The notes under the pieces: generated by a model
What the model was told of the DNA's origin: nothing
The model's input: only the letters and a program-made list of their open reading frames with translations
Database searches by the model: none
Virus record (IMG/VR): IMGVR_UViG_3300031578_000229
Coordinates: 1-30,881 of that record
DNA from: a virus
Length of the DNA stretch: 30,881 nucleotides
Direction: 5' to 3' (one strand)
Position numbers and translations under genes: made by a program
In this document: positions 2-28,942 of the stretch, piece by piece
How positions within the stretch are numbered: the first letter of the stretch is position 1
Layout of the letters: every line of letters begins with the position of its first letter

Positions 2-649
2 AAAATGAAGATTCAAATAATCAGGTACATATTTTTCATCGACTGATTTTAAAACTTCGATAAAAGTTTTATAATATTCAGCAGCACCGTGATATGTTAT
101 GCCTAAAAATTTCATATTTGATTTTATAGCATCAGGTAATTTATCCAAAACAAATAAACCACCATTCATTATTTTAGCATTTGGAAAAGCACTTTTAATA
201 TAATCCCACCATTTTATATAATATACTGCATATAAGGCGGGTGACATGTAAGGGAAAAGATTTGGTTCGTTGGCAATTTCAAATACAGGTTCTTCGTTAG
301 GATGATGTTTTACCCAACTAGCTGCAAGTGCTTTTATATTTGATAATCCCGAACTACCTTCATATTCACCTGTTTCATTAAGAAATTGTTCCATTAAAAT
401 ATTATGCTTGGTTTTATTACCTACATCATGTAGGTAACTAAGATGACCATTTTTAAAATACACACCTTCTATTTTAAAATGAAAATCCATTAAAGTTTTA
501 TAATTATCAATAGGATATTTATATGGGCCGTTTCTTGAGTTATCCACTTTACCAAAAGTAATGAAATCGGAAACACCGACACCCATTCCCATTCTACAGG
601 GTAATTTATTATTTCTCAATCTACCGTATGTTCTATAACGATTATCCAT
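2..649 (-). CDS. Glycoside hydrolase, clan GH-A-like (3' end outside window)
   Basis: The frame runs from ATG at 649 off the left edge, giving 216 visible residues. AGGAG at 660-656 sits 6 nt before the ATG and fixes the start. Residues 123-130 read FEIANEPN. The Asn-Glu-Pro at the end of a beta strand is the signature of the acid/base glutamate (Glu128) in clan-A TIM-barrel glycosidases. The strands GITYH (about 183-187) and LNLHF (212-216) fit later barrel strands. The nucleophile Glu would lie beyond the edge. There is no signal peptide or membrane segment. The gene follows the polymerase-like gene by 14 nt, so the two may be co-transcribed. In a phage, such an enzyme could degrade host surface polysaccharide as part of a virion depolymerase. 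That role, the substrate and the GH family are inferences; the fold assignment is fairly secure. Confidence 0.65.
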   Translation of the reverse strand, partial: MDNRYRTYGRLRNNKLPCRMGMGVGVSDFITFGKVDNSRNGPYKYPIDNYKTLMDFHFKIEGVYFKNGHLSYLHDVGNKTKHNILMEQFLNETGEYEGSSGLSNIKALAASWVKHHPNEEPVFEIANEPNLFPYMSPALYAVYYIKWWDYIKSAFPNAKIMNGGLFVLDKLPDAIKSNMKFLGITYHGAAEYYKTFIEVLKSVDEKYVPDYLNLHF

Positions 650-663
650 GTAAATCTCCTACG

Positions 664-2094
664 TTATAATGAAACCCCTGTCACTACACCATTTTCATTC
701 AATATTTCTTCAAATGTATCATACGTGAAATCAGCATCAGATTCCTTTACGACAATACAATCATGTACAGTAAAATAATCAATCTTATTTTTATTCATGG
801 TTGGGCATAATTTATTATAAATGATATTGGATTCTTTCCGCTGCAATTCATGGGCTAACGATTTATGATCACCTTTTTTAAAATGCGTTAATATTTTTGT
901 CAATAATGGAAATTCAATTTCCCAAATAGATTGCATTTTTTCATTGTATTTAACATTGTTCCTACCAAATACATGAGTGATCCATTCCTTTTTGATCTCA
1001 TCCCTTGTTTTTTCCTCAGAAAAATAAAAATCCATCCTATCTTGAAAAAACTCATACAAACCAGATTTTAAAATTATTTTATAACGCCCTAATTCATCTA
1101 TTGCTTCCCGGCTCATATCGGAGTATGATTTAAACCCAAAACTCTTGATAGTGGGGTTAAAACTATTTTTATAAATATGTTCACCGGAATAAGAATTGTT
1201 CCGATTTACATATTTATCCCTTACATCTTCAGCATTTGGAGTTATTTCAAAAGGGGACATGTAAAATTCATCTTCTCTATACTTACCCGATTCATCTAAT
1301 ATTTTATTTAAATAATTTTTAAATAATGTGTAAAGTAGTGCTGGTTGACAAGAAATAACATCCAATTGAACTAATTTTTCACCATTTTCTGAGATAAGGA
1401 AATTTTCACGGATATGCCTTGATATATTCGTGAAATTGGTATGTACCCGACCAAAACGATCCCTTGTCAAAAATAAAGAATGAACATCATCACCGTTGAT
1501 TCTTTCACATTTGTCCAATTCTAATCGAGCTTTTCTTTTACTGAGTCTTTTATTTTTAACTTCATTGTCTAAATATTCTTTAGCTCCCCTGATATCTACC
1601 TTAAAAGTTCTCATCATGTCATATAAGTGGCCTAATAGCTCATCATTTCTCATTTTACCAAATTTGTCATTTTGCCACTTCAACATTTTTTTAAGTAATG
1701 AAGGTTTAACAATTTCGTAATTGACAACCTTATCATCATTGTACCTTTTATGCAAACCATAACATTTACACTTACCATCAGTTTTATTTTTACCCACAAT
1801 ATAATAATTATCAGTATTGATAAATTTAAATTCAAGCAGATACTCAAGATAACGCTTATAGTGCTTACCTAACTCCATTCTTATGATTTTTGATGAAATA
1901 GGGACTTTTTTTAGGTTTTTGAATTTAGAAAAAGAATTTAGATAAATAATCTTGCTGGCAATAAATAAGAAATAATCAATATTATACTTAAAAGGAAAGT
2001 TAGGTGAGTTATACTTTAAACAACGTTCAAGCTCATCCTTGAATTTTTTAGGGAGTTTTATAATTGGCTTTATCTTGCTCTTATCAATATTCAT
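664..2094 (-). CDS. Single-subunit (family A-like) polymerase-related protein
   Basis: 476 aa. The C-terminal half carries an ordered set of motifs resembling family A DNA polymerases and T7-type RNA polymerases. GRVHTNFTNI at 215-224 is followed by a motif A-like strand LVQLDV with Asp245 and then QP (250-251). A motif B-like helix contains K368/K369 and FGRN (376-379). A Gln-rich helix HELQRKESN (415-423) follows. A motif C-like VHD (443-445) lies in a hydrophobic strand. The N-terminal 200 residues are basic and unrecognised, with two Cys near 109-111. No 3'-5' exonuclease domain is visible, and the protein is short for a replicative polymerase. I recall similar proteins from Bacteroidota mobile elements. 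Activity (DNA synthesis, priming, RNA synthesis or none) is unknown. An AATAATTTAAATTTC box lies at 2115-2101, just before the start, and no SD is seen. Confidence 0.55.
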   Translation of the reverse strand: MNIDKSKIKPIIKLPKKFKDELERCLKYNSPNFPFKYNIDYFLFIASKIIYLNSFSKFKNLKKVPISSKIIRMELGKHYKRYLEYLLEFKFINTDNYYIVGKNKTDGKCKCYGLHKRYNDDKVVNYEIVKPSLLKKMLKWQNDKFGKMRNDELLGHLYDMMRTFKVDIRGAKEYLDNEVKNKRLSKRKARLELDKCERINGDDVHSLFLTRDRFGRVHTNFTNISRHIRENFLISENGEKLVQLDVISCQPALLYTLFKNYLNKILDESGKYREDEFYMSPFEITPNAEDVRDKYVNRNNSYSGEHIYKNSFNPTIKSFGFKSYSDMSREAIDELGRYKIILKSGLYEFFQDRMDFYFSEEKTRDEIKKEWITHVFGRNNVKYNEKMQSIWEIEFPLLTKILTHFKKGDHKSLAHELQRKESNIIYNKLCPTMNKNKIDYFTVHDCIVVKESDADFTYDTFEEILNENGVVTGVSL

Positions 2095-2258: not shown

Positions 2259-3059
2259 ATGCTAAATAAAGACAAAATCATAGAATCCCTGAAACAGGGG
2301 AAACCCAGAAACATTAAAATTTCTAACAAAATAACCAAAGATGCTTTGATTGAAAGTTTGTTGGAATACGAAAGCACCGATGCGCCAAGTGTGATTGACC
2401 TTGAAAAGGAAGTACGGGAAGGCGGTGTAGGAACTTTACCAACCATCAAAAAGGAAGAAGGTTCGGATAACAAGTCGTTTCAGATTAAAATGGGGAAAAA
2501 CAATAAAGACGAGAAAAAAACCAAGACACCTATCAAATTTGCAACTGATTTGGGCATGAAAACAATTATATTTGATGAAAATTTCATGGGTATAGATGAG
2601 CAGGGAAAAGCTTCAATCTCAGATATGTTCAAGGAAGAAGAAGTAAATCTGATTTTAAAGTCCCCCATTGCTAAATGGAGAATGGTTGAAATCAGACCAA
2701 TTTATTGCATTGAAAAATATTTAATGACCGGAACTACAGGGAACCGCATTACTTGTTATAATCCCAAACTAAATAAATTTAAATCACCCAACCTAAAGGG
2801 TTTCGTAAATGCACTTTATGAAAGAATGGATGACAAGGGAAAAGAACCAGTTGAATTAGAAGGGAAAAAATTGAAAAGTGGTAAAACTATTAAATATAAA
2901 TTCATCCCAATAGAATCTACCATTGATAATTTGGAAATAGGAGTTATGCAGGTAGCCAGAAATAAATACGCCATTGCTTTACAAAAACCCAACCAAGAAC
3001 ATCCTTACTTGTTCAATATGACACCAGACGTGCTTAACTTTTTCTTCAAAGATAGATAA
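2259..3059 (+). CDS. Conserved-looking hypothetical protein, 266 aa
   Basis: I do not recognise a family. The first 40 residues look like a short helical domain (LNKDKIIESLKQ...). A Lys/Glu-rich linker spans about residues 60-90. A mixed alpha/beta domain of about 170 residues follows and ends in a hydrophobic FFF stretch. It has no cysteine cluster, membrane segment or signal peptide. The start at 2259 directly follows AT-rich DNA (TATAAATT at 2251-2258) without an SD. Its TAA overlaps the next ATG by one base (TAATG at 3057-3061). This indicates translational coupling to the SWIM protein and a shared operon leading to the helicase. A replication or recombination accessory role is inferred from position only. 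Confidence 0.6.
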   Translation: MLNKDKIIESLKQGKPRNIKISNKITKDALIESLLEYESTDAPSVIDLEKEVREGGVGTLPTIKKEEGSDNKSFQIKMGKNNKDEKKTKTPIKFATDLGMKTIIFDENFMGIDEQGKASISDMFKEEEVNLILKSPIAKWRMVEIRPIYCIEKYLMTGTTGNRITCYNPKLNKFKSPNLKGFVNALYERMDDKGKEPVELEGKKLKSGKTIKYKFIPIESTIDNLEIGVMQVARNKYAIALQKPNQEHPYLFNMTPDVLNFFFKDR

Positions 3060-4126
3060 TGATAAATATTAAACGATTAATTATTAATGCAGAGAAAATG
3101 TATCCCTTATTAGAGGATTCTTTCCCTTCATTGAAAAGCTCATCTGATGCAGCAAGAAAATCCCGTGCTTCTTCCATAACTGTTTTTTATCAAGGATTGG
3201 ATCAAGCCCCGGATGGACACGCCAGAACTAATTGGAAGGTGCCAAGTCAGTCATCAAGAAAAAACGTTGGTAAGAAAGGTAATGATTATTTAGTTGTTGT
3301 TGAAATTAAAGTTAACTTGAACGGTGGTTTGTTTACCATCGCAAAAGAAAAATGGAACATGAAACGTTTTGCGGAAGTTTTTGCCACAAGTGATGTTAGA
3401 GTTCATTGTACATGTCCAGATTTTTATTATGGTGGTGCCAAATATAATTTAGGCCCATCGGGCGGTCATAAAGGTAATTTAGCTTTAAACAAAAACAGTG
3501 GTTATGCTGGCGAACCAACCAGCGTTGGAAATAATTTAGCACCGGATGTACGAGATCCAGAAAGAAAGCATGTGTTATGCAAACATTTGATAGCAGTTGC
3601 TACTTGGTTTCCGGGTAACGCAAGTAAAATAATGTCTGATGCTAAAAAATACAATATTGAAATTGAAGTCACTGATAAAGCAACAAAAGATGCAGAAGAT
3701 GGAACCCCTGAATTGGAAAAAGATAAAAATTTAGTCGAGGTCTCTGATGAATTGAAAAAAGCTATTATCGACCCGTTGATTAGTGCTGCTGAAGAATTAG
3801 ATAAGAATCAGGAAAATCTTGGCGCAGAAGATATTGTAGATGAGGAAAACATATCAACCGAACATGAAATCGAAGATGTTCCCGCTGAAGAAACCGAAGA
3901 AGTCATTGAGGACGAAAACATTGAAGCCGAAGAAGTGGAACCGGAAGATGAAACCGAGGATATAATCAGCGATAGAAATGAAACCGTCATAGAAAAAGAA
4001 GACGAAACAGGGGATATCATTGAAGATGAAAATATAGAACGTGACGAAAAAAAGAAACTGGAAAAGGACAAAGATTCGGAAGATTCTAAAGTTTCTGATG
4101 ATCCAGAGGAATTATTAGGCCGATAA
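3059..4126 (+). CDS. SWIM zinc-finger protein with acidic C-terminal tail
   Basis: 355 aa. A SWIM-type zinc motif (CxC...CxH) is visible: Cys117 and Cys119 in CTCPDF, then Cys174 and His176 in CKHL. The Gly/Asn-rich loop between the pairs is about 54 residues, long for a SWIM finger. SWIM fingers bind DNA or protein partners, for example in Rad51-paralogue cofactors and transposases. From about residue 200 the protein becomes a strongly acidic, low-complexity tail with repeated EDENIE-like units. The start codon overlaps the stop of the preceding gene, and the UvsW-like helicase follows after a 48-nt gap that contains its own promoter-like box. A recombination or helicase-loading role is inferred from domain and neighbourhood. 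The acidic tail could mimic DNA or recruit a basic partner. Confidence 0.6.
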   Translation: MINIKRLIINAEKMYPLLEDSFPSLKSSSDAARKSRASSITVFYQGLDQAPDGHARTNWKVPSQSSRKNVGKKGNDYLVVVEIKVNLNGGLFTIAKEKWNMKRFAEVFATSDVRVHCTCPDFYYGGAKYNLGPSGGHKGNLALNKNSGYAGEPTSVGNNLAPDVRDPERKHVLCKHLIAVATWFPGNASKIMSDAKKYNIEIEVTDKATKDAEDGTPELEKDKNLVEVSDELKKAIIDPLISAAEELDKNQENLGAEDIVDEENISTEHEIEDVPAEETEEVIEDENIEAEEVEPEDETEDIISDRNETVIEKEDETGDIIEDENIERDEKKKLEKDKDSEDSKVSDDPEELLGR

Positions 4127-4174: not shown

Positions 4175-6070
4175 ATGGATGCGTCAGTTATTTTCGACCA
4201 ATATAATGAAAATGATAGTTTAGTTGTCATAAATGCTATTGATAAGCAAAGTGAGAACGAACTACTTGCTTTCCTTTACAGAAAACTAACATATGAAAAT
4301 ACAAAGGTTAAATACGCATGGGAATTCAAACAGGGCTTCCATGATGGTAATGAACATGTATTTAACCAAAGAAAGCGCACCATCCCTATTGGGTTAATAC
4401 CTAAAACCGTTAATTACTTAAGGGACTCATACCCACAAGTTAAAGTTGGAGTTTCTGATAAAATACGAAAAATATTTTCAAACCCAAATGGGGAAGTAGG
4501 ATTAACACAAGAAGTAATAAAGAAATATTGTGATAAATTAAAATTGTTTCATGGTGTAAAAAAGGTAAAGATAACTCCATACGACCATCAAATAAGAACC
4601 ATCGAGAGAGGTCTTAACGGTAGGCGCATATCTTTAATGGCTTGCACTTCTTCTGGTAAATCACTTACCATAATGGTTATGGCAAGATATTTAATGGAGG
4701 ATGAAAAAAGAAAGGTACTGATTATCACCCCTTCCTCTGGATTGGTAAAACAATTATTCAATGATTTTTCAATTGATTATAGTTGGAAGGAAGCAAAGGA
4801 TCATTGCACTTTAGTTTACAGCGCATCCAAGGATAAATTAACAGCAAAACAAAAAAGACAATTGGAAGAGTTGAATCTTGGTGAAGAAACGATGCACAAG
4901 GAAATTACCATCTCTACATGGCAAAGCCTTCAACATAAACGTGCTAAGGAATGCCCTGATTGTAAAAAAATAAGGGTGAAAAAAAACAGGCCAAAAAATT
5001 GTCCTAACTGTAAAGACATTAGAGCAAAGGCAAAGAAATTTTTTAATTCCTTTACTGCCATAATGGTTGATGAAGCTCACAGTGTACGTGGGGAAATTTT
5101 AAGGGATGTGTTAGGTCAATGTCATAATGCAACTGATTTTAAAATAGGATTATCAGGTACGCTACCGGATGAAGGTATAGAATCGGCATGGATTGAAGGT
5201 GCGCTTGGTAGGAAAGAAGAAGTAGTGCGACTACATGAATTAATCACATTAGGTCTATTACCACCTATGGAAATTCATGGTATAAAAATACCCTATAATA
5301 AGGAAATAAGACCTTTTATCTGTAGACAAAAATTTGACCCTGAATATTATCTACTTACCAACAATGGGAGTAGGAAAAAAGTCATTGATATATTGATCAA
5401 TGCAAAGAAATTAGGCACTAACCAAAACTCTTTACTTCTCTTTAAAAAAATCGATACCCTTAACCAAATGCATGAGTACTTAAAAAAAGAACACCCCGAA
5501 TTTAAATACCATGTTATTACAGGAATAGTCCCTGTTGCAAAAAGAGAAGAAATGCGGGTTGACTTGCGAGAGTCGGGAAGAATAATATTAGCAACGTATG
5601 GAACGATGAGACAGGGGGTTAATATTGAACTTCTCCATAATTTAGTATTTGTCGAATATGCAAAGTCAATGTATTACATCGTACAGGCAATGGGAAGAAT
5701 TGCTAGAGCACATCCCGATAAGGCAATGTCTACTGTATTTGATATATATGATGATTGTAGTTATATGACAAAGCCAAGGGCTGGTAATTTTCCCACGTTA
5801 ATGGAGAATTATTCTGTTCAACATTGGAACACAAGAAACACGTATTACATAGACCAGAGGCTTCCGGTAACAGAATTTTCACTTGAAGGAATATACGAAG
5901 CTAGTGTTAACCCCGATGACTTGGAAAATCGAAAAAAAGTGAAAAAGGAAGAAGCACTTGAAAAGGCTAAAAAGAAAAAGGCCAAAGGTAAAAAGAAAAA
6001 GACACCTACAAATACAAATACAAATACAAAGAAAGTTACTTTAGCGCAACAGACTCAATTCGACTTATAA
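4175..6070 (+). CDS. uvsW: UvsW-like superfamily 2 DNA helicase with zinc-ribbon insertion
   Basis: 631 aa (T4 UvsW is about 500). Superfamily 2 motifs occur in order: a Q-like YDHQ (136-139), Walker A CTSSGKS (157-163), ITPSSGLV (184-191), DEAH (299-302) and SGTLPD (327-332). In the second domain come LLFKKIDTL (421-429), ATYGTMRQGVN (473-483) and the arginine-finger motif QAMGRIAR (504-511). In T4, UvsW remodels forks and R-loops and shifts replication to the recombination-dependent mode; the same role is expected here. Between motifs Ib and II lies an added segment with Cys260/263 and Cys276/279, a likely zinc ribbon that I do not know from T4 UvsW. The last 45 residues form a Lys-rich tail with an NTNTNT run, a probable nucleic-acid contact. 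Translation starts without an SD. Confidence 0.85.
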   Translation: MDASVIFDQYNENDSLVVINAIDKQSENELLAFLYRKLTYENTKVKYAWEFKQGFHDGNEHVFNQRKRTIPIGLIPKTVNYLRDSYPQVKVGVSDKIRKIFSNPNGEVGLTQEVIKKYCDKLKLFHGVKKVKITPYDHQIRTIERGLNGRRISLMACTSSGKSLTIMVMARYLMEDEKRKVLIITPSSGLVKQLFNDFSIDYSWKEAKDHCTLVYSASKDKLTAKQKRQLEELNLGEETMHKEITISTWQSLQHKRAKECPDCKKIRVKKNRPKNCPNCKDIRAKAKKFFNSFTAIMVDEAHSVRGEILRDVLGQCHNATDFKIGLSGTLPDEGIESAWIEGALGRKEEVVRLHELITLGLLPPMEIHGIKIPYNKEIRPFICRQKFDPEYYLLTNNGSRKKVIDILINAKKLGTNQNSLLLFKKIDTLNQMHEYLKKEHPEFKYHVITGIVPVAKREEMRVDLRESGRIILATYGTMRQGVNIELLHNLVFVEYAKSMYYIVQAMGRIARAHPDKAMSTVFDIYDDCSYMTKPRAGNFPTLMENYSVQHWNTRNTYYIDQRLPVTEFSLEGIYEASVNPDDLENRKKVKKEEALEKAKKKKAKGKKKKTPTNTNTNTKKVTLAQQTQFDL

Positions 6071-27187: not shown

Positions 27188-27285
27188 GGATAAAATATTT
27201 TTTTATTTCAAACTAATTTTAATAATAACAGTTTATTATTTTTTCAATTAAAAAATAATTAAAAATAAAAATATTTTTTGATATT

Positions 27286-27293
27286 TATAAACT
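27286..27293 (+). promoter_or_regulatory. Late promoter box TATAAACT before the acidic repeat gene
   Basis: Exact plus-strand box 35 nt before the ATG at 27329, with AGAAGGA between. A second exact plus-strand copy lies at 27171-27178. Confidence 0.55.
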
Positions 27294-27328
27294 ATAATCA
27301 AAGTTTAATTAATCAGAAGGACTTGAAA

Positions 27329-28942
<1,614 letters not shown>

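Follow-up and report, generated by a model that had tools for sequence, protein, structure and literature searches.

We found that the minus-strand gene at positions 664-2094 of a 30,881-base virus record carrying T4-type genes (the whole stretch analysed, hereafter the window) encodes a compact polymerase without an exonuclease domain, and we confirmed by homology, fold and residue conservation that its product belongs to the A family (Pol I/T7-like). The enzyme is the phage branch of a lineage resembling the transposon/virus polymerases (TV-Pols) and related to the divPolA2 polymerases, and is not unprecedented. Its probable role is that of an additional, accessory DNA polymerase alongside a normal replicase, in gap filling or recombination-linked synthesis.

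The open reading frame (ORF) that a preliminary description had placed at these positions is real, with its strand now assigned as minus; it runs from ATG to stop, encodes 476 residues and was the sole ORF noted for the interval. The ordered series of motifs A, B and C reported in that description at residues 215-251, 368-379 and 443-445 was located correctly and is present as described: the first range holds the G215-R216 hairpin and motif A (D245...Q250-P251), the second corresponds to motif B (R364xxxK368...F376-G377) and the third to motif C (V-H444-D445). The protein had also been described as family A or T7-type, compact and exonuclease-less, a view borne out by the structural model, the profile comparisons and the invariance of the catalytic residues; no exonuclease family was matched, and structural alignment with Pol I starts only at the thumb, around residue 146.

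Searches with the single protein gave no meaningful Pfam or NCBIfam match and nothing in the PDB or among plasmids, and IMG/VR returned none without a profile. The first single-sequence search produced only six weak matches, in records of uncultured huge phages 595-735 kb long, and five of these were combined with the window protein into a family profile. With this profile, 136 loci were retrieved from viral contigs and 80 of them retained; 17 of the contigs concerned exceed 200 kb. Removing near-copies left 46 non-redundant phage homologues, most of which share 20-30% identity with the window protein; the nearest relative (L007) is 54% identical. The Pfam model DNA_pol_A (PF00476) matched 0 of 40 family members at E 0.05, a result that depends on a database cut-off and is not a biological criterion. 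A Pfam tail-protein match of the polymerase (PF21424, E 0.03) was discarded as chance, as were scattered Pfam matches that each occurred in a single family member.

Twelve residues are invariant in the 46 phage homologues (G215, R216, T222, D245, Q250, Y347, K368, K406, E421, T442, H444 and D445), and because they persist across such divergent proteins, the motif match is not a chance one. When 12 bacterial homologues were added, R216, D245, Q250, K368, E421 and D445 were retained in all 58 members. The position of R364 is Arg in 29 of the 46 phage members (Lys in 16) and in 12/12 bacterial ones, while K368 is present in 58/58.

Table 1. Coordinates of the polymerase gene, its domains and motifs, and neighbouring genes in the window.
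Feature	Position	Strand	Basis
Polymerase gene, 476 aa, exonuclease-less A-family (TV-Pol-like)	664..2094	-	ORF, AlphaFold2 model, PDB structural alignment (Z 13-15), homologues
Predicted N-terminal winged-helix-like domain, ~residues 39-127, order H-E-H-H-E-E	1714..1980	-	model secondary structure, topology only
Helical thumb-like region, residues 131-201	1492..1704	-	helices in model
Arg hairpin and motif A, residues 212-251 (D212, GR216, T222, R229, D245, Q250, P251)	1342..1461	-	invariance; divPolA2 register
~70-residue insert after motif A, residues 271-341	1072..1284	-	alignments; low model confidence
Motif B/O-helix, residues 364-378 (R364, K368, F376-G377)	961..1005	-	conservation, profile register
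L-Q-x-x-E motif, residues 418-421 (Q418, E421)	832..843	-	invariant or nearly so
Motif C, residues 442-447 (T-V-H444-D445-C-I)	754..771	-	conservation, profile register
Divergent neighbour, 266 aa	2259..3059	+	same position in L007
UvsW-type helicase	4175..6070	+	near polymerase in window, L007 and rumen huge phages

Membership of the A family follows from the structural and profile-profile evidence together. An AlphaFold2 model built from 40 sequences (mean pLDDT 83, pTM 0.74) contains a palm, in which D245 is predicted to end strand 240-246 and D445 to sit where strand 440-443 turns into strand 446-450, as in Pol I; modelled hairpin strands 209-211 and 217-219 flank R216. Every significant PDB match in Foldseek was a polymerase of the Pol I type, the best E-value being a modest 1e-4, and a second aligner gave Z-scores of 13-15 over ~240-250 residues within 146-476 (rmsd 3-4 A) against apicoplast Pol, Pol theta, Klenow, Taq and T7 DNA polymerase. 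In a viral structure library, the best two matches resemble family members (one a 'putative DNA polymerase I' of 403 aa, E 8e-20), and divPolA2-type proteins appeared lower down, including those of Rheinheimera phage Barba31A and Aeromonas phage 4L372D. Profile-profile comparison using hhalign aligned the family with a 39-sequence PolA profile over residues 360-467 at E 3e-6, or 1e-6 when the C-terminal half was used, equating R364/K368 with R754/K758 and D445 with D882 of Pol I, and with nine divPolA2 proteins over residues 210-471 at E 6e-13 with all motifs in register, whereas 15 profiles of unrelated neighbour genes, run as controls, gave E-values of at least 0.04. For motifs B and C the Pol I register comes from hhalign directly, for motif A from divPolA2 and the sequence pattern. 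Only two of 177,635 PDB sequences matched the family profile; both are DNA polymerase I, and neither match is significant alone.

The order of strands and helices in the model suggests that the N-terminus is winged-helix-like, the structural matches themselves leaving any fold possible for residues 1-145; a profile search of this region against the PDB returned a winged-helix factor at a weak and non-significant E of 0.14, and comparison with the corresponding domain of divPolA2 gave no significant similarity (E 0.095). In Vibrio phage 1.101 the divPolA2 gene (L105:199-1476) is abutted by a gene (1476-1773) for a separate protein with a winged-helix DNA-binding annotation, which recalls this winged-helix-like N-terminus. 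The thumb-like region is modelled as helices 131-150, 152-161, 168-180 and 186-200. The insert after motif A is absent from most members, with L007 and the rumen-phage members also enlarged, and its segment 272-304 has a pLDDT under 50.

The family extends into bacteria. Its profile matched 16 of 395 genomes from the phylum of a Bacteroidaceae MAG, the MAG's own match being a phage-like locus with a rumen-phage neighbourhood, and the best chromosomal Bacteroidota matches are nearly full length (E 2e-57 and 2e-59). These homologues are mostly 470-550 aa long and keep the R, D, SQP, K, E and D residues. At 7 of 12 bacterial loci, versus 0 of 20 control stretches, a gene for a phage integrase or serine resolvase lies within ~7.5 kb (Fisher p ~2e-4, computed by hand, with recombinase queries taken from polymerase loci and so favouring those somewhat). 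Bacteroidetes carriers were listed, and an integrase/resolvase neighbourhood described, when the TV-Pols were defined as transposon/virus polymerases and predicted to be prim-pols (Iyer, Abhiman and Aravind 2008, PMC2579912), and we infer that the Bacteroidota homologues correspond to those carriers. Almost no further TV-Pols came from viral contigs, plasmids or 294 genomes from the phylum of a Gemmataceae MAG. In a phylogenetic tree, phage and bacterial members interleave while divPolA2 forms its own clade (100/100), in a topology with long branches and several weak deep supports. One bacterial homologue (L246:1483-3543), of 686 aa, has a C-terminal extension that by eye resembles a GIY-YIG nuclease. 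Separately, two Bacteroidota ORFs (L259, L260) display a GGR(Y/F)Y...DY/DF...CVHDSFIV pattern like that of divPolA2 and, judged from this pattern, may be chromosomal relatives of it.

The sugar gate sets the family apart. E710 of E. coli Pol I excludes ribonucleotides by steric hindrance and, with F762, makes up the steric gate (PMC9324360). The E710 position is Glu in 39/39 PolAs, Gln (Q250) in 58/58 family members, and Glu, His or Trp, mostly Glu or His, in divPolA2. CcPol has Glu there (PMC7581432), and the proteins of Microcystis phage LMM01 and Polaromonas plasmids have His. Phe occupies the Tyr766 position in 44 of 46 phage members (Phe376 in the window protein) and in 7 of 12 bacterial ones. 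Since Gln250 keeps bulk at the gate, dNTP use is expected, with selectivity uncertain; the change from Glu to Gln amounts to a clean natural experiment in sugar selection.

The T4-type genes of the window encode a major head protein, a late sigma factor and a UvsW-type helicase, with genes for a RuvC-like resolvase, an RNase H-like exonuclease and an SbcC/gp46-like subunit following. No family was matched by the 266-aa neighbour, and its identification as gp32 was rejected, the gp32 of the closest relative lying elsewhere on its contig. Other ORFs in the window include a partial one directly downstream of the polymerase (2-649, minus strand) with a glycoside-hydrolase-like 'EIANEPN' motif and no Pfam match; a SWIM-like zinc-finger protein (3059-4126, plus strand), conserved in L007 and L023, whose tail is acidic and repetitive and whose Pfam match falls just below the cut-off; and an ORF with tandem PPVDDMAPEGD/VVPEVGEDD repeats and a poly-Asp run (27278-28942, plus strand).

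The preliminary description had pointed to a separate gp43-like polymerase as something to look for in the genome. None is present in the 31-kb window, which holds no other polymerase gene, and the accessory role therefore rests on the relatives, in which a regular polymerase is found. PolB was detected in 14 of 16 related records larger than 190 kb, namely LR756501, LR756504, LR756502, LR745206 and ten IMG/VR records (G001-G007, G009, G010 and G012), some of these matches being partial only. The two records without PolB, LR756511 and G008, carry a PF00476 polymerase directly downstream that overlaps the family gene by 4 nt, and L074, of the same clade, has the same overlapping pair. In the L003 (11899-14345), L036 (5854-8324) and L074 (5857-8306) loci, the partner is a ~428-aa PolA-like gene, its PF00476 match checked in two of the three, and the two A-family polymerases of this clade look translationally coupled. 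In six of the huge-phage records (LR756502, LR745206, LR756504, G004, G006 and G007), PolB appears to be a split gene, matching in two ORFs at least ~100 kb apart, with PF00136 covered at ~18-155 by the N-terminal part and at ~123-452 by the C-terminal part. A T4-type primase (phrog_47) and a DnaB-type helicase were each found in 16 of 18 records, and the 54-kb contig of the closest relative has helicase, gp32 and primase all present. Each record has a single copy of the family. The DnaG zinc-ribbon model alone had given no primase over the cut-off in 16 records; the phrog_47 primases weaken the idea that the polymerase substitutes for a missing primase.

Beside the homology, fold, conservation, neighbouring genes and regular polymerase of the relatives observed above, activity, substrate (sugar choice) and pathway are what we infer. 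In the proposed mechanism, the palm residues Asp245 and Asp445 would coordinate two metal ions, the incoming triphosphate would be held by Lys368 and Arg364 in the fingers helix, and Arg216 and Gln418 would read the primer-template minor groove, while the N-terminal winged-helix-like and helical region would grip DNA, replacing the usual exonuclease and thumb. Without proofreading, the enzyme would lay down short, distributive, template-dependent patches, most likely to close gaps or lengthen 3' ends during recombination and repair of the UvsW/RuvC/gp46 type, a pathway whose genes lie beside its own in the window; Gln250 at the gate would favour dNTP use, perhaps with relaxed selectivity. Polymerase neighbours vary between clades, so no single pathway is fixed.

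Several other readings were weighed against an accessory DNA polymerase. The Pol I E710 and E883 equivalents are both replaced in the family, the latter by Cys or Ser, as might befit a catalytically dead relative retained for binding. However, all 58 divergent sequences have retained both metal-binding Asp residues and the fingers Lys, and the Tt72 polymerase is an active DNA polymerase with Ser at the E883 position (HD-S; PMC9324360), so the loss of E883 is no sign of a dead enzyme. The inactive relative entertained in the preliminary description is accordingly highly improbable. Motif C of the family reads HD-S/C, as in T7 RNA polymerase (RNAP), whose residue at the E710-equivalent position is Gly. 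The shared motif C, a winged-helix-like N-terminus that could bind a promoter, and profile kinship to divPolA2, for which such a role was raised as one option (PMC11348598), would be compatible with a single-subunit RNA polymerase. The bulky Gln in place of Gly, the HD-S motif of the DNA polymerase Tt72 (PMC9324360) and the late sigma factor in the window, which points to transcription by host RNAP, argue against this transcribing enzyme, and we consider it very unlikely.

That the protein is the phage's main replicase, the new replicative enzyme of the same description, could be read from a 31-kb window with no other polymerase gene, but the large relatives have a separate PolB or adjacent PolA and the protein itself lacks an exonuclease domain, making this exceedingly improbable. 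The main rival is a primase or prim-pol that starts DNA strands de novo, with the N-terminal DNA-binding region or a partner gripping single-stranded DNA as in CcPol-MP of SCCmec. CcPol, the one tested TV-Pol whose biochemistry was found, puts this reading ahead of the other rivals: paired with MP, which binds ssDNA, it synthesises primers de novo (PMC7581432; PMC10061031) and acts as a primase instead of a repair enzyme, which also counts against the gap-filling proposal. The prediction for TV-Pols (PMC2579912) and the integrase/resolvase linkage of the Bacteroidota homologues speak for priming too. Set against these, the relatives already encode a T4-type primase and DnaB helicase, and no SSB gene was found beside the polymerase, with the closest relative's gp32 elsewhere and the 266-aa neighbour unmatched; we give priming a minor though appreciable chance. 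A bolder form of the accessory-polymerase proposal, which we hold to be rather unlikely, is a third kind of phage accessory A-family polymerase with a Gln-Phe gate, primer-independent or sugar-tolerant, spread over several huge-phage lineages and starting or patching DNA in recombination-dependent replication beside a complete T4-type replisome. The limited literature searched yielded no description of a huge-phage branch combining a Gln gate, a winged-helix-like N-terminus and a T4-type replisome; the TV-Pol-like kind is already known, and the Gln-gated huge-phage branch would be the new detail. Whether the enzyme patches gaps, restarts forks or primes, the answer would explain why the phage needs two polymerases.

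Compared with Pol I and T7 DNA polymerase, the protein shares the palm-fingers core, motifs A, B and C, the hairpin Arg and an equivalent of Q849, and differs in its N-terminus, in the absent exonuclease and in the replacements E710 to Q250 and Tyr766 to Phe376. DivPolA1 of Flavobacterium phage immuto is likewise a second polymerase with an inactive exonuclease, but retains that degenerate domain (PMC11348598), and it scored only 2.2 bits with the family profile. DivPolA2, known from barbaviruses and ICP1-like phages (Virol J 2024, PMC11348598), is alike in being an extra PolA-like gene beside a regular polymerase with no exonuclease, a novel N-terminal domain and a homologous palm core with motifs A-C in register (E 6e-13), yet it stands apart as a separate 100/100 clade with Glu, His or Trp, not Gln, at the gate.

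Several features of TV-Pols recur in the protein: a length of 476 aa within their 400-600 aa range, no nuclease domain, a beta-hairpin with a conserved Arg (R216), two palm Asp (D245, D445) and the fingers RxxxK (R364/K368). The TV-Pol thumb consists of two antiparallel helices, and the model here has helices at 131-200. The LQxxE motif is common to the family and the TV-Pol-like proteins of LMM01 and Polaromonas plasmids, the LMM01 protein being taken as a TV-Pol from its motifs and not by accession; a direct profile match to a small LMM01/Polaromonas/Calothrix set of few sequences was not significant (E 0.02). Unlike TV-Pols, the polymerase resides in a huge T4-like phage setting, with relatives that have a full replisome and with recombination genes rather than D5 helicase or integrase as neighbours, and its gate is Gln instead of the His or Glu noted above. 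Linkage to a D5 helicase or integrase/resolvase is typical of TV-Pols, not required, and none was seen adjacent to the polymerase gene among the window ORFs that were scanned. Collectively, these comparisons suggest a family that links phage accessory polymerases with the TV-Pols of mobile elements, the two interleaved in one tree.
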